Shown here piece by piece: positions 27,652-48,671 of a DNA stretch of 53,075 bases. How positions within the stretch are numbered: position 1 is the first letter of the stretch; every line of letters starts with the position of its first letter. Below the pieces are notes generated by a model that saw only the letters and a list, made by a program, of their open reading frames with translations, did no database searches and was not told where the DNA came from. This stretch comes from a virus, in IMG/VR virus record IMGVR_UViG_3300025030_000138, positions 1-53,075 of that record, one strand, 5' to 3'. Made by a program: the position numbers and the translations under genes.

Positions 27652-28626
27652 CTACTGGACGACGAGGGAGAAGAAGACGCCCAGGCTGGAGGCGATGATC
27701 TTGTGCTGCACCGCCACGATCCCGTCCACCCGGTCGCTGCGGCGGCTGCGGATCTCGTACTTGTCGAGGAGCGCCCCGCCCTTCGCGTCGGAGTACGGCT
27801 TCCAGGCGAAGGTGTACATAGCCGAGGGCGTCCGCTTCCCGGGCTTCTCCGGGACGTGCATCAGCAGCGCGGACTTGCCGTAGAGGAAGGCGGTGGTCTG
27901 CGATGCCTGCCCCTCCTTCGAGGTGGTGGAGACGGCCCTGGCGGTGACGACGCGCTTGAGCTTGAACGTCCGCGCCAGATCCTCGTTGGTCGGGGTCCGG
28001 TTGGTGTCGTTCGGCATCCGGTCCCGCACGTCGGGCGAGGAGTAGAGCGCGCGCTCCACGTCCGGGCCCATGACCATGATGTTCGGGCGGTAGCCGGTCA
28101 GGCTCTCGACGTAGTTGCACTGCCGCAGCACCGCGTCGACCGGGGTGGAGCCGGCCGAGCCCCAGTACACGGTGGTGGTGTCGGCCTCGGCGGTGGCGTG
28201 GCCGGTGATGTCGCGGCCCCAGATCGAGGTCGCGAACGCCGCGGTCTTGAAGAGGACCTCGCACTTGAGGGCCATCTTGTGCGCGACGAACTCGGCGGCG
28301 TCGTTGTCCTCGTCCAGCACCGCGTCCTGGTTGCTGCGGCTCAGCCACGAGATGTCCTTGTGGTAGCCGTATGGCACGCACTGGAACGTGTCGGTGGAGA
28401 GCCGGTAGCCGCCGCCGGCCGACTCCGCGCCCTCGGCGAGGACCTCGGCGTCGTCGCGGAGCCAGTCCTCCTTGTTGAAGACGTAGTAGCTGTCACTCAT
28501 CTTCGGGGTGAGGATGAGCGGGGACGCCTGGTGGGCGACGAACTTCTCCGGGTCCTGCATGTACGCGACCGCGGTATCGGTCAGCGGCTGGTTGATGTGT
28601 CCGGATGCGAGCGTGGGGTTTGCCAT
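27652..28626 (-). CDS. Major capsid protein
   Basis: 324 aa, ATG 28626 with GAAAGG upstream. Follows protease/scaffold and decoration genes. Sequence features fit HK97-fold capsids of Mu-like heads: a hydrophobic-beta spine region (V-L-F-K-T-A-A-F-A-T-S-I-W-G-R-D), R-P-N-I-M-V-M-G-P-D-V in the A-domain area, and beta-rich C-terminus. Abundant protein, and a 7-bp-stem hairpin precedes its ribosome site. Confidence 0.8.
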   Translation of the reverse strand: MANPTLASGHINQPLTDTAVAYMQDPEKFVAHQASPLILTPKMSDSYYVFNKEDWLRDDAEVLAEGAESAGGGYRLSTDTFQCVPYGYHKDISWLSRSNQDAVLDEDNDAAEFVAHKMALKCEVLFKTAAFATSIWGRDITGHATAEADTTTVYWGSAGSTPVDAVLRQCNYVESLTGYRPNIMVMGPDVERALYSSPDVRDRMPNDTNRTPTNEDLARTFKLKRVVTARAVSTTSKEGQASQTTAFLYGKSALLMHVPEKPGKRTPSAMYTFAWKPYSDAKGGALLDKYEIRSRRSDRVDGIVAVQHKIIASSLGVFFSLVVQ

Positions 28627-29541: not shown

Positions 29542-30186
29542 CTAGTTGAGCTCGCCCTCGGTGTCGTCCACGTCGTCCACGGACCCGCGCCGAGCCTGGT
29601 AGGCCTCGGCGTAGAGCCTCGCGTACCCGGGATCCCTCTGCGCCAGGACCGCGGCCTTGGCCGGGGTCAGGGTCGGGTCCTTCTCGCGGAGCGCGATCAC
29701 CTTCGCGGCGGTGAACGCCTTGAGCTGCGCGCGCGCCGAGGTGCCACCGCCGGGGACCGCCGAGGCCGAGCGGCCGCGCTCGGTCATGGGCACGACCTCG
29801 GGAGCTGCGGCGCCGAAGCACTTGGAGAAGCCGTCGGCGCCCATGGCGTCGTACGCCTTGAGCAGCGAGTCGCGCGCGGCCGCGGGCGCCTTGCCGGCGG
29901 CGATCGCGGCGTCGACCGCGGCCTCGGCCTCGCCCTTCTTCGCGGCGTCCTCCGCGGCCTTGATGGTCTCCTTCGCCTTCCCGAGATCCTCGGAGAGCTT
30001 CAGGATCTGCGCGTCCTTCGAGTCGCGGGCCGCGGTCAGGACCACGACCTCGGCCTTGGCGCGGGTGAGCTCCACGTCGGCCGCGGCTGCCTTGCCGGCG
30101 GTCTCGGCGAGGAGGGCGGCGGTCTTGGCGTGGTCCGCAGCCATCTTCTCGTGCTCCGCGAGGGTGATCGTCTTCGGTGCGTCCAT
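29542..30186 (-). CDS. Internal-start scaffold protein (Mu Z-like)
   Basis: In-frame ATG at 30186 (Met183 of the protease-scaffold) with AGGAG six bases upstream, giving 214 aa starting M-D-A-P-K-T-I-T-L-A-E-H-E-K. This is the exact boundary between the protease and coiled-coil parts, like the nested gene pair of Mu and lambda. Nested product inferred, not proven. Confidence 0.6.
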   Translation of the reverse strand: MDAPKTITLAEHEKMAADHAKTAALLAETAGKAAAADVELTRAKAEVVVLTAARDSKDAQILKLSEDLGKAKETIKAAEDAAKKGEAEAAVDAAIAAGKAPAAARDSLLKAYDAMGADGFSKCFGAAAPEVVPMTERGRSASAVPGGGTSARAQLKAFTAAKVIALREKDPTLTPAKAAVLAQRDPGYARLYAEAYQARRGSVDDVDDTEGELN

Positions 30187-30732
30187 GGTGTTCTCCTGTC
30201 TCAGCGCGACGGTTGAGGCGGGGACGATCCCCACCGCGTTCATGTCCGGGATCGCCGGACGATTCGTGAGGGCGACGGCCTGCAGCACTGCGGAGAGCGT
30301 GTCTCCGCTCGTCGGGTCGAGAACGTCGAACCCGATCTCGGGCGAACACAGGTCGTACTCCTCGGCCTCGGCGTACTGCAGCGCGCGAGGCGTCGGCTTG
30401 ATGTACGCGAACAGGGCCGGGGCCCCGGCTTCGTTCGTCTCGATCTTGAGGCCGATCACACGGCCGGCGCTCTTGCCGTCCTCGGCGTTCTGCGGCGAGT
30501 AGGTCCCGTGGTTGTAGTCAGCGGGGACGCGGCGCGCGTACGCCTTGAAGTTGGCCAGCAGCGTGTCTGCGAGCTCCGCGGAGAACTCGATCTTCCCGTA
30601 CCGCGAGTCGTGCACGGTCGCGCCGATGGGTGCAATCTGGAGACGCAGCAGCTTGGTGTCTGGGGCGAGCCCGAAAGACACGTCCGCCGTCACGACCCGC
30701 ACTGGGGTCGCTGCGAGGATCCAGGGGTGCAT
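29542..30732 (-). CDS. Head maturation protease-scaffold (Mu I-like)
   Basis: 396 aa, ATG 30732. N-terminal part resembles Mu I proteases: D-Y-N-H-G-T (H as possible catalytic residue), Y-D-L-C-S-P-E-I-G-F and A-V-A-L-T-N-R-P-A-I near residue 165. The C-terminal half is a long Ala/Lys/Glu coiled coil, the scaffold. An in-frame internal ATG (30186) with AGGAGA makes scaffold alone. Acts in procapsid assembly, then cleaves itself and capsid parts (family knowledge). Confidence 0.75.
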   Translation of the reverse strand: MHPWILAATPVRVVTADVSFGLAPDTKLLRLQIAPIGATVHDSRYGKIEFSAELADTLLANFKAYARRVPADYNHGTYSPQNAEDGKSAGRVIGLKIETNEAGAPALFAYIKPTPRALQYAEAEEYDLCSPEIGFDVLDPTSGDTLSAVLQAVALTNRPAIPDMNAVGIVPASTVALRQENTMDAPKTITLAEHEKMAADHAKTAALLAETAGKAAAADVELTRAKAEVVVLTAARDSKDAQILKLSEDLGKAKETIKAAEDAAKKGEAEAAVDAAIAAGKAPAAARDSLLKAYDAMGADGFSKCFGAAAPEVVPMTERGRSASAVPGGGTSARAQLKAFTAAKVIALREKDPTLTPAKAAVLAQRDPGYARLYAEAYQARRGSVDDVDDTEGELN

Positions 30733-33615: not shown

Positions 33616-34250
33616 TACTGAGCCGACACCGCGGTCGCGTTGATATCTCCGGTTGCGCCCGCGCTGCGGCAGTAGCCGGTGATCGCCGGGACCTTGAGCC
33701 GCCGCGTGACGCCGGGGTGGAACTTGCTGCCGAGCGTCGCGCAGTCGGTTCCAGAGCCGCCGTCGTCCGTGCCGCAGAGGAAGACCAGTTCGTCGCTCCC
33801 CGTGAAGTCGTAGGTCCCGGCGGAGAGGCTGACGACGGTGGTCCCGTTCGCGGCGCAGTTGCTTGCACCCACGGGGGTCGTGAGGTCGGCAGCGGCCACG
33901 GAGAAGGCGTTGCCGCCGGTGACGCTGACGGTGCCGTCCACCGTCAGGCTGCCCGCGTTGTCGCTCACCGGCTGGACCAGCGGCGACGTGGCCGGCGACA
34001 CGTAGAGCGGGGACGCGGCGGTGCCGATCGCGGTGCCCGACCCGTTGACCGGCGTCACCTTGAAGCCGCCCGCCGCCGTCAGGTACGCCTCCTGGAGGGC
34101 GTAGTAGGCGTTGGTGATGTACTTCGAGGTGATGCCGCTCGGCGCCGAAGCGTCCGCGTGCGCGAGCGCGACGGTGCCGAGGACGGCGCCGAGCACGAGC
34201 AGCGCGAGCGCGCCCGCTGCCGCGCTGAGGCGGTGGAGGATCTTGGTCAT
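33615..34250 (-). CDS. Exported beta-rich protein
   Basis: 211 aa, ATG 34250. N-terminal signal peptide or anchor (A-A-A-G-A-L-A-L-L-V-L-G-A-V-L-G-T-V-A-L-A-H-A-D-A) with a plausible A-H-A cleavage site, then a beta-rich domain with four Cys. Adjacent to the lectin-like exported protein. Function unknown. Confidence 0.6.
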   Translation of the reverse strand: MTKILHRLSAAAGALALLVLGAVLGTVALAHADASAPSGITSKYITNAYYALQEAYLTAAGGFKVTPVNGSGTAIGTAASPLYVSPATSPLVQPVSDNAGSLTVDGTVSVTGGNAFSVAAADLTTPVGASNCAANGTTVVSLSAGTYDFTGSDELVFLCGTDDGGSGTDCATLGSKFHPGVTRRLKVPAITGYCRSAGATGDINATAVSAQ

Positions 34251-34262
34251 GGTCGGGGGCTC

Positions 34263-37200
34263 CTACTGCGGGGGCTGCAGGACGCGGAGACAACGGCAGA
34301 GCAACCACCTGCCCTTGCTGCTCTCGCACTGAGGGTTGGGCGACGCTGGGATCTGCCCAGCGTCAGCACCGGCCACGCTGTCTGCGATCGTCCCGTCTGC
34401 CTCGCGGCACGGGCCGCAGGTGCCGGAGTCGAGCAGGGCGCTGTAGAGCACCGGGTACAGCACGCCCTCGCTCTCGGCCTCGCGCATGAACGCCGCGCGC
34501 CCGGCGGAGTTGCCCTCCACCGAGAGCTCCATGGCCGTGCGCTTGATCGCGGGCGCCTCCTCGACCGAGGCCACGAAGTCGGCCCAGATTTTCTCTTCGC
34601 TGATCTCCTCCGGCGAGAGCCCAGCTTCCTCCGCCCACCGCGCGTCCCGGATCGCCAGGGCCCGGGTCATGCGGAGGATCTCGTCTGCGATCGTGTCGCC
34701 CTGCGAGCGGGCGAGGGAGTCGAGGGCCGGATCCTCCGGCTCCTCGATCGGCACCGCGGCGGAGTCGTCGTCATCCTGCGCGAGCGTCAGCGGCTCCGGC
34801 GCCGGGTCCGCGATGTCCTCCCGGATCGCCGCCTGCGACGCCTTGGCCGCGGTCTCCGCGCGCCCGGGCGCCATGTCCAACTCGGCCTTGGCGTGCTCGC
34901 GGCCGAAGGCGTAGAGGGCGGCGGCGTAGCCTGCGGTCGCGTCCGTGAGCGCGGCCCGGACCTCGGGCGGCACGTCGGCAGCGTTGACCGCCTTGAAGTC
35001 GCCCGTGGCTGCAGCCTTCCGGAGCCCGGCGACCCACGCGGTCACGGACGAGCGCTGCGCTTTGAGCGCGGCTGCGACGCCGGCCTGCAAGTCGGCCGGG
35101 GCCGCGTCGAGCTTGGCGCCGATCTCGGCGAAGCGGACCGCGCCCTCCCCGGCGAGGAGCGGGCGTCGGGCGGACCACGGGGCGCGCTCGCTGTGGAGCT
35201 GCGCGGCCGGGGCCCCAGCCAGCGGGAACGCGGTGTTCGCCTCGCCCACGGTGACGACGATCTCCGCGAACCGCAGCGGCTTCCGCTCCGCCCTCACGCC
35301 CACGTCCGGCTGCCCGGGGTCGACGTACGAGAGGGTCATGTGCGGCGTGAACCCGTGGTTGCGCTTCGGCCCGCAGCTCGCCGCGTCGAGGGCCGCGCAC
35401 AGCGACTGCCGCAGGTCAGGCAGCGTCGGCGCGTCGAACGAGAGGTACAGCACGTCCTTGCCGTCGCTGCTCTCGGTCGCGGCGAACCGGCCGGTGCCGG
35501 AAAGCTCGCCCTCGCAAGGCGCCGCGGACTTCGCCCACGCCTCGACGGCGGCGAGCACCTTCGGCCCGAGACCCGGCTCCTTGCCGACGTAGGCCAGCGT
35601 CAGGTGGAGTTCGTCGGCGGGAAGCCCGCCCGCGACAGCCAGCTCCGCGGCCACGTCGGACGGCGGCCAGAACGCCACCATGACGCCGGCGTGCTTGGTC
35701 GGGTCTTCACCCATAAGCAGCGGCTCGCAGGTCCCGCACGAGCAGCCGGTCAGGCTGTGGGTCTGCGGCGGAGCGGCCGGGGCCGGCGCCTCCTCCACCT
35801 TCGGCACGAAGCCTTTGCCCGCGCTCCCGAGCAGCCGGTCCGCGGTGGGCCAGTCCACCTGGAACGCCATCTTCGCGATCTCAACCGCGGCATCCCGCGG
35901 CAGCGTGCCGGCCGCGACCTGAGACACGATCGCCACCAGGGCCGTGACCTGCGCGCCGTTGAGCGCGGACTCCTGCACGTCCGCCACCGGCTCCGCGGCG
36001 GGGGCTGCCCCCGGCACCGCAGCCGCCACCGGCGCCGCCTCAGCCTCCGGCGCCGGCAGCGAGAGCAGCTCGTGCGTGCGCTCCAGCGCCGAGCGGCCCG
36101 AGGTGAGCCCCGCGGTCTTGGCGTCGATCAGCGGCTTGAGGGCAGCGGCCACGTCCTCGCTGCGCAGCTTCGGCGTGGCAATGTAGGGGTAGGCGGCCTG
36201 CGGCCCGAAGTTCCACGTGATCAGCGCCGGGATCAGCTGCGTGTTGATCGGCTCCAGCAGGTCCCCGGCGAGCGCCTCCTCTGCGAGGACCCAGGGATCC
36301 TGCATGGCCGTGGACGCCGACAGGCTCCCGTTCGGGGTCGTTCCCGCGGACTGCCAGCCCTGCAGGAAGGCGTCCCGGATGTCTCGCTTCAGGAAGTCGA
36401 TCGCGTCGGCGATGGCCTTGCCACCGTCGGGGTTGCCCTGCTTCCAGCTGATCTCGACGCCAGTGCGGAAGCGCCCGAACGCGCCCTCATGCGCCCGGAG
36501 GTTGCCGAGCCACTCGTCAATGTCCAGGAGGTCGGCCGGGGTCGTCCCCTTCTCCACGTTCGCAACGGGAACGCCAAGCGCCTCGCGGTCCATCCAGATC
36601 CCGAGGAGTTTCAGCCCGTCCAGGACGAGCTTGATCGGCATGTGGCACGGACGCAGCCAACTCTCGCCCGTGGGGTCGTCGCCGCTGGGCTCGACCGTGT
36701 GCACCAGCAGCGAGTCCACCGGGAGCGGCTCGAAGGTCTGGGCGCCCCCGTAGACCCGCTGGACGATCCCGGTGAGCACGCCGCCCGTGAACAGCCAGCG
36801 GTAGATCGTCCACGGCGGACGCGGCGCCAGCCTTGCCAGCGTGGTCTGCCGCCTGGTCTTGTCGTACCGACACACGACCTCGGAGACAGCGTGGCCGTTG
36901 ACGATCGCGGTCCGGGCGGCCTCGCGGAGGTACCGAGAGAACCCTGGCTTCAAATCCTCGAACAGCGCCTTGCGGATGAACTCCGCGTGCGGGTCGAGGT
37001 TCTCCGTCCCCTTCCGGTCCCGCGCCTTACCGTCGGCCGGGGTCACGTCGGCGCCGGCCAGGGCGAGGACGATCGGCAGCACCGCCCCACGGACAGACTG
37101 CGCGCAGGCGGAGATCGTCTTCGCGCCCTTCTCGTACAGGCCGAGGGTGGTCACGTCTCCGTACGTCCGCGAGTCCACAGCCAACTCGCTGTTGGGCTCG

Positions 37201-37271
37201 CGCCGGTAGAGCCGACCACCGGGAGCGTAGAGGCCGGAGCTGCCCACCGGAGCGAAGGAGGGGACGAGCAT
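34263..37271 (-). CDS. Portal (DUF935/Mu gp29-like) fused to 2H phosphoesterase and MuF-like domain
   Basis: 1002 aa. Residues 1-485 resemble DUF935 portals, including the A-L-N-G-A-Q-V-T-A-L-V-A-I-V end. A Cys trio (C510, C512, C515) precedes residues about 527-685, which carry H556-L-T558 and H644-M-T646, the paired H-x-T motifs of 2H phosphoesterases (2'-5' RNA ligase family). The C-terminal 300 residues are helical and end with C952-G-P-C955, C982, C992 and C994, like MuF/SPP1 gp7 head-morphogenesis proteins. A portal-MuF fusion is known; a phosphoesterase between them is unusual. Confidence 0.78.
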   Translation of the reverse strand: MLVPSFAPVGSSGLYAPGGRLYRREPNSELAVDSRTYGDVTTLGLYEKGAKTISACAQSVRGAVLPIVLALAGADVTPADGKARDRKGTENLDPHAEFIRKALFEDLKPGFSRYLREAARTAIVNGHAVSEVVCRYDKTRRQTTLARLAPRPPWTIYRWLFTGGVLTGIVQRVYGGAQTFEPLPVDSLLVHTVEPSGDDPTGESWLRPCHMPIKLVLDGLKLLGIWMDREALGVPVANVEKGTTPADLLDIDEWLGNLRAHEGAFGRFRTGVEISWKQGNPDGGKAIADAIDFLKRDIRDAFLQGWQSAGTTPNGSLSASTAMQDPWVLAEEALAGDLLEPINTQLIPALITWNFGPQAAYPYIATPKLRSEDVAAALKPLIDAKTAGLTSGRSALERTHELLSLPAPEAEAAPVAAAVPGAAPAAEPVADVQESALNGAQVTALVAIVSQVAAGTLPRDAAVEIAKMAFQVDWPTADRLLGSAGKGFVPKVEEAPAPAAPPQTHSLTGCSCGTCEPLLMGEDPTKHAGVMVAFWPPSDVAAELAVAGGLPADELHLTLAYVGKEPGLGPKVLAAVEAWAKSAAPCEGELSGTGRFAATESSDGKDVLYLSFDAPTLPDLRQSLCAALDAASCGPKRNHGFTPHMTLSYVDPGQPDVGVRAERKPLRFAEIVVTVGEANTAFPLAGAPAAQLHSERAPWSARRPLLAGEGAVRFAEIGAKLDAAPADLQAGVAAALKAQRSSVTAWVAGLRKAAATGDFKAVNAADVPPEVRAALTDATAGYAAALYAFGREHAKAELDMAPGRAETAAKASQAAIREDIADPAPEPLTLAQDDDDSAAVPIEEPEDPALDSLARSQGDTIADEILRMTRALAIRDARWAEEAGLSPEEISEEKIWADFVASVEEAPAIKRTAMELSVEGNSAGRAAFMREAESEGVLYPVLYSALLDSGTCGPCREADGTIADSVAGADAGQIPASPNPQCESSKGRWLLCRCLRVLQPPQ

Positions 37272-37325
37272 GTGTCGTGCCTCCTTCGCTGCGGGGGTGG
37301 GGATGCTACGGGCTGCGGCTGCGGC

Positions 37326-38540
37326 TTACGCGAAGGTGATCGCGCCGGAGACGATCCGCTTGCCATTCGGCAGCACGAGCACCAGGTACCAGGTGGCGGC
37401 GCCGGCCTCGGTCACCACGAGATCGATGTCACCGTCGGACTCGCTCGTGAGCATCCACGCCTTCGCGCCGGCGATCGGCGTCTCGGTCGAGTCGGTGAAC
37501 GCCGCCGTGGTCACGTCGGAGGCGTTGGTCAGGTCGTCGGTGTTGGCCGTCCAGTCGCCCGCGTTGTTCTCGATGGCGATGTGACCGAGCGAGACGTTGC
37601 CGGCGTCGGCAGCGGGGAGCGCCGCGAGGGCGGTGGGCGCGTCGTCGTACGCCTGCGGGGTGCCGACGACCTTGGTGCTGACGGTCCCGGCGGCGTTGAT
37701 CTGCACGCGGATGCAGCCGAATTTGAGCGCGGTGATGACGTGCGCGGCGGTGAACACGAGCGCGGTCGTCGCCGCCTTGGTGTGCGAGACGCCACCGATC
37801 AGGAAGGCCGAGGTCTGCCCGGTCTTGAACTTCTCCGCCACCGAGTCGATCGCGAGGTTTCCGTCCACGAGTAGCGCGTTGGTGAGCGCCGGGGTCACGG
37901 GGATCGCGAGCCCGTCCGCGCCCACGGCGACGCCACCGCTCGGGGCGGTGGCTGCGATGCTGTCGCCCGTCGAGTCGTCGGAGAGGTAGGCGTAGAGCGA
38001 GGCGCGCTCGGCCATGTCGCCGCCGGCCGCGTTCTTGAGCTGGATTGTGAGCGCGATCGTGGTGCCGGCGTCCGCGCCGACCCCGATCGTGTGGACGCCG
38101 AGGGGGGCGAGGTTGAGCTTGCCGAGCTCGGCGGTGGTGGTGGCGAGGCCCGCGAGCTTCTCCAGCTCGGCCTCGGTCGTGGACAAGCCGGCCAGCTTGT
38201 TGATCTCGGTGGCGGTGGCCTCGATCGCGACCCCGCCCTTCTTGATCTCGGTGAAGTCCATCGAGTTGACGAGCCCGCCCGTGGTCGGGATCACCGCCTT
38301 GTTCGCGGCCACGGTGCCGGGGGTGATCCCGTCGAGGTAGCCGAACTCGGTGACGCTCAGGTCGGCGGTCTCCTCGAACGTCATGTAGCCGGAGCCCTTG
38401 AGGTGGGCGAAGTACGTGCTGGTGTTGTCGACGGCTGCGACGATCGCGGACTCCCCGGGAGCCAGGGCGGTGGCGGTGCCAGGGACGGTGATCGGGCCAC
38501 GGATCCGGCCGGTGTTGGTGCAGCGCATGGTTGCAGACAT
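37326..38540 (-). CDS. Head fibre or decoration protein
   Basis: 404 aa, ATG 38540. Contains the repeated A-T-E-I-N-K-L-A-G-L / T-E-A-E-L-E-K-L-A-G-L / T-A-E-L-G-K-L stretch (about 108-143) typical of trimeric head-fibre helices, flanked by beta-rich N- and C-terminal domains. Lies between large terminase and portal, where phages often carry head-fibre genes. Confidence 0.65.
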   Translation of the reverse strand: MSATMRCTNTGRIRGPITVPGTATALAPGESAIVAAVDNTSTYFAHLKGSGYMTFEETADLSVTEFGYLDGITPGTVAANKAVIPTTGGLVNSMDFTEIKKGGVAIEATATEINKLAGLSTTEAELEKLAGLATTTAELGKLNLAPLGVHTIGVGADAGTTIALTIQLKNAAGGDMAERASLYAYLSDDSTGDSIAATAPSGGVAVGADGLAIPVTPALTNALLVDGNLAIDSVAEKFKTGQTSAFLIGGVSHTKAATTALVFTAAHVITALKFGCIRVQINAAGTVSTKVVGTPQAYDDAPTALAALPAADAGNVSLGHIAIENNAGDWTANTDDLTNASDVTTAAFTDSTETPIAGAKAWMLTSESDGDIDLVVTEAGAATWYLVLVLPNGKRIVSGAITFA

Positions 38541-38543
38541 GGG

Positions 38544-39911
38544 TCAGCCCTCTTCCGAGTAGCGAGAGCGGCCCGGAGGCGCCCCGCGGGTTGTCGTTGC
38601 GGAGCCGGAGCCGAGCCCGGCGAGCTTCTCGACGGCGCCGCTCAGGCCGTCCACCTGGTCGTCATGCGCGCCCGCGGGGAAGCCCTCGATCTCGTCCAGG
38701 AACGCCGAGTTCCAAGGGCCTCGCACGATGTCGACGTTGCCGGCTTCGGCAGCGGCGTTCACCGGGTTGGCGCGCGTGCGCTTGTCTCCCGTCGGTCGGT
38801 TGCCGCGACAGGAGAAGCCGCGCAGCACCGCCCGCTGGTAGTGATCCACGGTGTTGACGCCCGCGCTTCCGGGCTCCTGCTCGATCCAGACTTCCACGTC
38901 CGGGCCGTCGATCTCCGCGGTCTGCCGCACCAGCGCCTCGACGGCGCCGGGCTTGCCTCGCATTCGGCGCACGTCACAGACCGTGTAGCGGCCGCGGCTC
39001 TCAGCGACGAGGGCGCCTACGGTCCAGTCGGGGTCGGTGCCGGGAGCGGGCTCGGTCGCGGCGAGGTCCCAGTAGCGAACCCGGTGCGTGCCCGCCGGGG
39101 CGGCGTCGACGGTCTTGAACCACTCGCGGCGGAACAGGTTGCCGGCGGCGCGGACCGTCCAGTCGCCATTCTCCAACTGCGCCCGCGTCACCGGGTCGAG
39201 CTGCCGCAGGCTCTCCCGGTACTCGTCGCGGTCGAGGTGCGGGTTGTCGTCCAGCCGCGCCGGGATGAACGGCCGTCCCTGCTGCGCGCCCTCGATCAAG
39301 AACCGCTGCCGCACCCACTCGTGCCCGAGGCCACCGGGGTTGCTTGAGCCCCGCTGCCGCATGGGGATCTTGGAGCCGGCGAGCCGGCGACCGCGGGAGA
39401 GTAGGTAGCGGTACTGGCTCTCCGTGAACTGCGTCACCTCATCGAAGCCGACGTAGTGGAACTCGCTGCCCTGGTAGCGGTACTTGTCGATCTCGGTTTC
39501 CAGGTAACCGAACGTCAGCGTGGCCCCGCTCGGGAACGTCCACGTCTTGCGCTCGCCGCTCCACCGCGCGGCCGTGCCACCGAGCCACTGGTGCGCCCGG
39601 TCCATGAGCGCGCCCGGCAGGCTCAGGTCTGCGAACGTCCGCCGAAGCAGCAGGGCCGCGTAGCCCGGAACGTCCGCGTGCTGCAGCGCAGCCATGAGCT
39701 GCGCCGAGCTCTTGCCACCGCCAGCGGCCCCGCCGTAGAGAGCCTCACGGGTTTCGAGCAGGAGGAAGGCTGCCTGCGGTGCTGTCGGTTCTTGCGGGAT
39801 CCAGCGGTTCTGCAGCGAGGCCACCCGCTGCCCCAGCGCCGCCTTCCGCTCCGCCGAGAGCGAGGCCACCCGCTCCGTCCATGATCGCGAGGATCGCAGC
39901 AAGGTGTCCAT
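38544..39911 (-). CDS. terL: Terminase large subunit
   Basis: 455 aa. ATPase: Walker A G-G-A-A-G-G-G-K67-S and Walker B Y-V-G-F-D157-E158. Nuclease: Y-W-D282-L-A-A-T, W-I-E344-Q-E and H-D417-D418-Q-V-D421. Cuts and pumps DNA into the prohead through the portal. ATG 39911 gives a 167-bp overlap with the small terminase gene; a later start is possible. Complete by length. Confidence 0.93.
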   Translation of the reverse strand: MDTLLRSSRSWTERVASLSAERKAALGQRVASLQNRWIPQEPTAPQAAFLLLETREALYGGAAGGGKSSAQLMAALQHADVPGYAALLLRRTFADLSLPGALMDRAHQWLGGTAARWSGERKTWTFPSGATLTFGYLETEIDKYRYQGSEFHYVGFDEVTQFTESQYRYLLSRGRRLAGSKIPMRQRGSSNPGGLGHEWVRQRFLIEGAQQGRPFIPARLDDNPHLDRDEYRESLRQLDPVTRAQLENGDWTVRAAGNLFRREWFKTVDAAPAGTHRVRYWDLAATEPAPGTDPDWTVGALVAESRGRYTVCDVRRMRGKPGAVEALVRQTAEIDGPDVEVWIEQEPGSAGVNTVDHYQRAVLRGFSCRGNRPTGDKRTRANPVNAAAEAGNVDIVRGPWNSAFLDEIEGFPAGAHDDQVDGLSGAVEKLAGLGSGSATTTRGAPPGRSRYSEEG

Positions 39912-47432: not shown

Positions 47433-47743
47433 TGCTGCCGGCTCGATCCCGGTGCGTTCGGCACCTTGCCGGCGATCGTAATCAGGGCGGTGGGTCCGCG
47501 CCGGTCCACGCGCTCGACCACGAACGCGAACCCGGCCAGGTGCACCACGTCGCCGGGGAGCACGGGGTCGCCGCGGATCCGCCCCCGCTGCCGCCTCGTC
47601 CACAGACAGAGGCGGTGCCAGTGCGCCCGCGCGTCGGGGTACAGAGCCCAGCCGAGGAGGGCGGCGGAGAGGGCTAGCACCGCCAGCGCGGCGAGCTCCG
47701 GGGACTCGATGGTGGCCCACAGGTCGCCGGTCAGTCCGTGCAT
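47429..47743 (-). CDS. Membrane-anchored small protein, 104 aa
   Basis: ATG 47743; a GTG four codons earlier is also possible. Hydrophobic helix near residues 17-37 (E-L-A-A-L-A-V-L-A-L-S-A-A-L-L-G-W-A-L-Y) then a basic stretch and a beta-rich end (V-L-P-G-D-V-V-H-L-A-G-F-A-F-V-V). Adjacent to another small membrane protein. Function unknown. Confidence 0.55.
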   Translation of the reverse strand: MHGLTGDLWATIESPELAALAVLALSAALLGWALYPDARAHWHRLCLWTRRQRGRIRGDPVLPGDVVHLAGFAFVVERVDRRGPTALITIAGKVPNAPGSSRQQ

Positions 47744-48477
47744 ACGCAATCCCACCGAGGCTCGCTTGCCTCATCCACGTCGAGCAGGAGCGGCTGCGCC
47801 TGCGTCTTGCGGAAGAGGGCCGCATAGGACACCTCGTCGGGTCGGAACGTGGCCCCGATCTGCGCCTCTTTCTCGATCCACCACGCCGCCGTCTCCGGGT
47901 GGTCGCGCATGATGCGGCTGCGAATGTTCCGCGACTTCATGAAGCACAGCGAGCAGTTCGACTCCCACCAGCGCAGGTGAAGATCGAACGGCTGCGCGTC
48001 CCAGAAAGCCATCACGTCGTCGCGCGTGACCCTCGCTTCGTAGAGCGGGAAGGCGTCCTCCCACGCTTCGGCCTCCTTCGCCCGCGCCTTGGCCACCCGG
48101 CGTGGATCGTCGTAGCGCAGGCCCACCACGTTCGCCCACGACTCGTGGCCCAGGCCGCGCATGAGGCCGGCCATCGGCTTGATCTTGAGGTCCGACGTGC
48201 AGAACCGAGCCACGGGGTTGGGCAGGTAGCTGCGCTTGCGGATCAACTCATCGAACCCGCCGGGCGCAGAGACGGTGTGGATCTCGACGCCCCACCGCTT
48301 CGCGCACTCGGCAACGAAGGCGTAGGTGGCAGGCATCTCCAGTCCGGTGTCGGCAAACGCAACGACAACGCCGGGCCGAAGCCCAGCATCGAGGACGCGC
48401 CGAAGCATGTAGCCGGAGGTTCGCCCGCCCGAGAAACTGATCAGCGCCGGGCCTTCAATTGCGAACGGGTTAATCAC
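47731..48477 (-). CDS. PP-loop ATPase, PAPS-reductase-like
   Basis: 248 aa from GTG 48477 (GTGA overlap; a TTG at 48498 is less likely). S16-G-G-R-T-S21 is the PP-loop, followed by V-A-F-A-D-T-G-L-E, R-F-C-T-S-D-L-K-I-K-P and N-C-S-L-C-F-M-K-S-R-N. These match the phage PAPS-reductase superfamily, which adenylates or thiolates substrates. No Dnd or sulfur-carrier genes are seen, so the substrate is unknown; a modified base is one option. Confidence 0.78.
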   Translation of the reverse strand: MINPFAIEGPALISFSGGRTSGYMLRRVLDAGLRPGVVVAFADTGLEMPATYAFVAECAKRWGVEIHTVSAPGGFDELIRKRSYLPNPVARFCTSDLKIKPMAGLMRGLGHESWANVVGLRYDDPRRVAKARAKEAEAWEDAFPLYEARVTRDDVMAFWDAQPFDLHLRWWESNCSLCFMKSRNIRSRIMRDHPETAAWWIEKEAQIGATFRPDEVSYAALFRKTQAQPLLLDVDEASEPRWDCVCTD

Positions 48478-48671
48478 CTCTCCCCCGCCGTCCCGCAAGA
48501 CCCCAGAAACGTCCCCGGCGCCGCGACCCCGGCCTGTCTCCGCGCCTTGCGCACGAGCGACTCCGGCGCCCCGGTCCGCTCCCGGATCGCAGCCGTGGGC
48601 AGGGTGGGCTCGGCGGCGACGAGGGCCACGAGGCGGGCGAAGAAGGGGGGCGAGGCGTTGGGGCGTCTCAC
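48474..48671 (-). CDS. Small HTH-like protein, 65 aa
   Basis: GTG in GTGA overlap. L-P-T-A-A-I-R-E-R-T-G-A-P-E-S-L-V-R-K-A-R-R fits a helix-turn-helix with basic recognition helix. No family recognised. Confidence 0.55.
   Translation of the reverse strand: MRRPNASPPFFARLVALVAAEPTLPTAAIRERTGAPESLVRKARRQAGVAAPGTFLGSCGTAGER

Follow-up and report, generated by a model that had tools for sequence, protein, structure and literature searches.

Our analysis shows that a viral portal protein carries a 2H phosphoesterase domain inside its chain. The protein is encoded in the window, by which we mean the whole stretch of DNA analysed here, a linear virus contig of 53,075 bases, and it joins a Mu-type portal domain, a linker, the 2H domain and a probable MuF-like C-terminus (Table 1). 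Judged from its residues and its predicted fold, the 2H domain looks intact and catalytically competent, of a LigT-like kind. That the whole is a Mu-type portal with a LigT-like 2H domain as its cargo, loaded into the head and acting on a host RNA or nucleotide target, is a reading to which we give about even weight.

Table 1. Features of the portal-2H fusion and its surrounding head module (window coordinates).
Feature	Position	Strand	Basis
Portal-2H-(MuF-like) fusion gene, 1002 aa from ATG	34263..37271	(-)	GC3; Pfam and PHROG matches
Portal_Mu / DUF935 portal domain, residues 70-391	36099..37064	(-)	PF06074 5.9e-29; phrog_113 portal 2.3e-32
Linker, residues 392-524, Ala/Pro-rich stretches	35700..36098	(-)	Sequence; no Pfam match
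2H phosphoesterase domain, residues 525-690	35202..35699	(-)	PF13563 5.7e-14; AF2 pLDDT 94.6; Foldseek best is LigT family
First catalytic motif, H556-L-T558	35598..35606	(-)	Translation; H and T in 62/62 aligned sequences
Second catalytic motif, H644-M-T646	35334..35342	(-)	Translation; H in 61/62; T in 61/62 and one S
Y649, equivalent of LigT Arg130 (His125 + 5)	35325..35327	(-)	Tyr in 58/62
Probable MuF-like C-terminal domain, about residues 884-1000, CGPC...CRC	34272..34622	(-)	PF04233 E 0.002; hhalign; ctLpZ231 likeness
Terminase large subunit, upstream, same module	38544..39911	(-)	PF17289/PF03237; phrog_979 1.7e-115
Mu I-like prohead protease, downstream	29542..30732	(-)	PF10123 9.8e-21
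Major head protein	27652..28626	(-)	phrog_1005 3.8e-57

The codon-position GC signal of the fusion gene (GC3 0.93) exceeds any other in the window, whose overall GC is 71%. A plus-strand ORF over the same DNA (33717-37874) was rejected as a gene, given the GC3 and the Pfam domains of the minus strand. The DUF935-like portal that the earlier note had placed N-terminal to the 2H domain is borne out by a Portal_Mu match of 101.9 bits against a cut-off of 23.9, which makes this a Mu-type portal, and the gene sits in a terminase-protease-capsid module, with the terminase upstream and the protease and major capsid protein downstream. No other portal or MuF gene was matched within the window. The portal-2H order recurs in other contigs and in Deinococcus plasmids that are finished sequences, which makes misassembly an unlikely source of the fusion. 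One viral contig (L002) matches the N-terminus at 100% but breaks off at residue 414, short of the 2H domain, and is therefore no evidence for the junction; a DNA-level search in phages found no match. Elsewhere in the window, positions 47731-48498 (-) encode a phage-borne PAPS-reductase-like protein (phrog_424, 4.2e-55).

The earlier note had read H556-L-T558 and H644-M-T646, 88 residues apart, as the double signature of 2H phosphoesterases. Both motifs lie at these positions, and PF13563 matches residues 550-654 with 52.9 bits against a cut-off of 27 (E 5.7e-14); PHROG families labelled 'RNA ligase' match the protein at 2.9e-15 and 2.1e-13. We modelled residues 525-690 in AlphaFold together with 61 homologues (a 62-sequence alignment). 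The resulting model has a mean pLDDT of 94.6 and predicts a LigT-like fold in which the two motifs begin strands 33-39 and 120-126. A chance pattern was rejected on the strength of the PF13563 match, this pLDDT and the LigT, Usb1 and Acb1 structural neighbours. Together, these results confirm that a 2H phosphoesterase domain lies within the portal protein.

Both H-x-T motifs are retained in 61 of the 62 aligned sequences. Because the patterns used to collect homologues contain the motifs, each motif was rechecked in the sequences that match the other seed alone: motif 1 is kept in all 24 homologues matching only the motif-2 seed, and motif 2, as H-x-T/S, in 19 of the 20 matching only the motif-1 seed. 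The histidines of both motifs are invariant in a further 13-sequence set, nine rows of which came from tblastn of annotated phages and not from patterns. The earlier note would have been refuted by motifs that do not face each other in one cleft or by histidines that vary among homologues; we found neither, the cleft being judged from the strand positions of the motifs in the predicted fold.

The C-terminus is the weakest of the three parts, and we regard it as probably MuF-like from sequence comparison. Whole-protein scans of Pfam and PHROG gave no MuF match. A six-frame search gave PF04233 at E 0.002 with 14.4 bits, below the cut-off of 29.6, and hhalign profile-profile comparison with MuF reported 41% probability over 109 columns. 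The final ~95 residues also align by tblastn (E 5e-7) with the C-terminal end of the ctLpZ231 portal, which carries a sub-threshold MuF match of its own. A scan of viral contigs with the C-terminus found no relative, and AlphaFold modelled the C-terminal 312 residues at a pLDDT of 43. A homologue search did recover portal-2H-MuF fusions, with MuF above the cut-off at the equivalent place in several relatives (L055, 3.6e-12; L060, 1e-6; L093, 1.1e-6). Thus, the portal and 2H parts of the architecture described in the earlier note stand, while its MuF-like end is probable, with the protein's own PF04233 match sub-threshold.

A profile scan of IMG/VR with the 2H domain identified 374 relatives, of which the best 80 of 374 loci were kept; a single-protein scan of bacterial genome contigs confirmed no relative. 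Among the best 80 loci, the 2H domain nearly always belongs to a longer ORF, and most of these ORFs also encode a head-protein domain. The 70 distinct 2H rows divide into 18 portal, 25 prohead-protease, 4 capsid and 2 MuF ORFs, plus 21 that have no assigned partner or stand alone, several of these in head operons. The portals are of more than one family: Mu-family (the window, L032, L060, L096), HK97-type Phage_portal (L034, L055, L071, L075, L079, L082, L085, L091, L093) and portals recognised by other PHROGs (phrog_776 in L026 and L031, phrog_3753 in L054, phrog_64 in L061 and L066), and portal-2H fusions of the relatives often continue into MuF. Other partners are prohead proteases (for example L018, L021, L029, L033), MuF (L013, L015, L028) and major capsid proteins (L022, L030, L087). 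Cultured relatives occur in Gordonia, Streptomyces and Arthrobacter phages, where the 2H domain, alone or fused, lies in the head operon. The head is thus the common denominator of these fusions.

On a tree of the 70 rows, which has modest support and does not place the window's own domain, partner labels take 21 changes compared with 35.8 when shuffled; the labels therefore cluster, and the 21 changes also mean that partners have been exchanged repeatedly. In two relatives (L074, L076) the portal-MuF protein lacks the 2H domain, which sits instead on the adjoining protease, and for this reason we view it as a movable add-on. Several further arrangements were seen among the relatives. On a phage-like Streptomyces sp. 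NBC_01278 plasmid (L101:5368-7551), a prohead protease S78-2H protein lies directly before the major capsid gene, and a 3400-aa ORF (L044:2-10201) combines ART-PolyVal, LigT-like 2H and PGDYG domains as a polyvalent protein with the same 2H type. Nudix or histidine-phosphatase domains lie within or beside the head-associated 2H ORF in L057, L062, L019, L024, L052 and L083. The 82-aa phrog_6439 directly precedes the 2H domain in a number of distinct head ORFs (L015, L017, L063), and intein or LAGLIDADG homing-endonuclease insertions occur in portal genes of relatives (L018:2810-5044, L029:182-2647, L059:1597-4080).

Portals are dodecamers with their C-terminal side turned to the head interior, and they remain with the capsid rather than being ejected with the DNA. 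By analogy, we infer that the 2H domain lies inside the head; with twelve subunits per portal, each prohead would have about a dozen copies facing inward on the crown side, and head assembly itself would load every head with the enzyme. The window yielded no second portal or MuF gene, and if 34263-37271 is the phage's portal, the 2H domain would be in every virion. The domain is in any case fused to a head structural protein, as is expected of a head-packaged effector. Catalysis, release, injection and target we likewise infer. The enzyme would most likely cut a phosphodiester in host RNA or a nucleotide, be it a 2'-5' bond, a cyclic oligonucleotide or a 2',3'-cyclic phosphate, and as infection begins this could weaken a host defence or target host RNA. 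A portal-borne 2H domain would be left behind when the DNA leaves the capsid, so delivery would require that the prohead protease or some other protease cut it free; the Mu I-like prohead protease encoded downstream is a candidate for this processing. Release in the prohead would be consistent with other partners of this domain, since proteases and capsid proteins undergo processing there. Without release, a portal-borne 2H domain would act during assembly. The window offers no pointer to any one defence system; the Nudix (L057) and histidine-phosphatase (L019) co-fusions lead us to lean toward small nucleotide targets.

The earlier note had suggested an Acb1-type enzyme, which would cleave the 3'-5' cyclic di- or trinucleotides of CBASS. 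The fold is common to Acb1, which appears in a Foldseek search of the PDB (7t26, E 1.5e-5, TM 0.47), and three relatives have weak, sub-threshold Acb1 Pfam matches (L057, L087, L093). In that same search, however, LigT-family enzymes come out on top (E 3.4e-9 to 4.9e-8), led by the Thermus LigT homologue 1iuh (E 3.4e-9) and followed by 5h7e and E. coli LigT, with Usb1 and Acb1 further down the list. Query-normalised TM scores are 0.47-0.48 for FBB1 Acb1 and 0.53-0.59 for BCSR5 Acb1, against 0.71 for the Thermus LigT homologue. When PDB sequences are searched with the profile, LigT/ThpR entries score 3e-8 to 5e-7 and Acb1 0.41, and Pfam Acb1 (PF23474) gives no match to this protein at E<=0.1. 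We rejected Acb1 membership on these last two results, and the placement in the earlier note gives way to one nearest LigT/ThpR, which comes first in both sequence and structure searches. An Acb1 or CBASS role is possible but not favoured, and we judge such an enzyme unlikely here. In Acb1 itself, E141 is the adenine-contacting Glu (PMC10419184).

The same ranking lends some weight to an RNase or RNA end-processing enzyme of the Usb1/LigT type, directed at host RNA or at healing RNA ends without degrading any signal: its closest relatives in sequence and fold are LigT/ThpR, Usb1 is also listed, and a Usb1-like RNase role is proposed for such fused domains in the relevant passage of PMC5512222. 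Against this, the score for the LigT/ThpR equivalog TIGR02258 is 22 bits, under the cut-off of 65.7, and the phosphate-binding Arg of LigT, three residues past the second HxT, is replaced by Tyr649 here and by Tyr throughout the family. As LigT Arg130 binds the product phosphate (PMC5283653), this systematic change suggests an altered substrate pocket. A complete RNA-repair set is also not favoured, since neither RNA_ligase (PF09414) nor RtcB was found in this record, a linear contig in which absent genes prove little. We consider the RNase explanation somewhat improbable, and find it harder still to favour a purely structural or assembly role, with activity irrelevant or confined to the prohead (on trapped RNA or nucleotides, for example). 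Such a role would suit a 2H type that is almost always linked to head proteins and a portal-fused domain that would stay in the head after ejection. It fits poorly with catalytic residues that are near-invariant across diverse fusion partners, and portal-MuF relatives do exist without the 2H domain, both ctLpZ231 and the two with 2H on the neighbouring protease.

Beyond the reading of a head-loaded, LigT-like cargo, we can offer a more specific proposal that we hold to be doubtful: that one 2H subfamily, marked by the Arg-to-Tyr change and repeatedly joined in many tailed phages to portal, MuF, protease and major capsid proteins, is a pre-loaded counter-defence enzyme against a nucleotide signal other than the Acb1 substrate, released by the maturation protease and leaving the head along with the DNA. 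If loaded and delivered, the domain would equip the phage, ahead of any expression of its own genes, with a ready enzyme against a rapid nucleotide-based defence. Its recurrent attachment to head proteins makes the idea testable in cultured Gordonia and Streptomyces phages and in prophage-like Deinococcus plasmids.

The passages on these domains in Iyer et al. 2017 (PMC5512222) describe 2H fused to MuF or portal in phage polyvalent proteins, and propose a role as a Usb1-like RNase or in degrading defence nucleotides; a passage in a 2022 survey (PMC9503650) takes 2H-head fusions to suggest head packaging and injection against nucleotide-based immunity. Since both the fusion and the anti-immunity idea were published in 2017 and 2022, the window protein is a further example of a known architecture, and the anti-defence link drawn in the earlier note is not new but agrees with the suggestion made in those passages. 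Domain combination, head context and proposed roles are alike. What differs from the fusions described there is that a Mu-type portal, a 2H domain and a probable MuF-like domain here form one chain, and that in relatives this 2H type is joined to prohead proteases and major capsid proteins as well. The passages in question make no mention of 2H fusion to proteases or capsid proteins; we do not claim these fusions as new, because PHROG models (phrog_14859, phrog_18402) already combine 2H with protease.

Compared with known enzymes, LigT/ThpR (the E. coli 5ldi series, Thermus 1iuh, Deinococcus 5h7e) is the best match in sequence and fold and has both HxTL motifs in common with our domain, which differs in Tyr649 for Arg130, in its sub-equivalog score and in being embedded in a head protein. 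Acb1 (anti-CBASS; 7t26/7t27, 9q2g) shares the 2H fold, the two HxT motifs and phage encoding, but is more distant in sequence and structure, with no PF23474 match here. Two DUF935 family portal proteins on Deinococcus plasmids (WP_014686833.1 on D. gobiensis I-0 plasmid P2 and WP_264778904.1 on D. aetherius pDAETH-4) likewise have Portal_Mu followed by a PF13563 2H domain with both HxT motifs, encoded between terminase and protease; at 27-31% identity to the window protein, they end in 2H and lack the C-terminal MuF-like part. Finally, actinophage genes annotated 'RNA ligase' (YungMoney gp19, Lilbeanie gp16, Mischief19 gp12, DalanDe gp19, GMA6 orf12, Shrooms gp18) encode a homologous domain of 26-36% identity in the portal-protease-capsid region, carried there on a protease or MuF protein or free-standing, and here on the portal.
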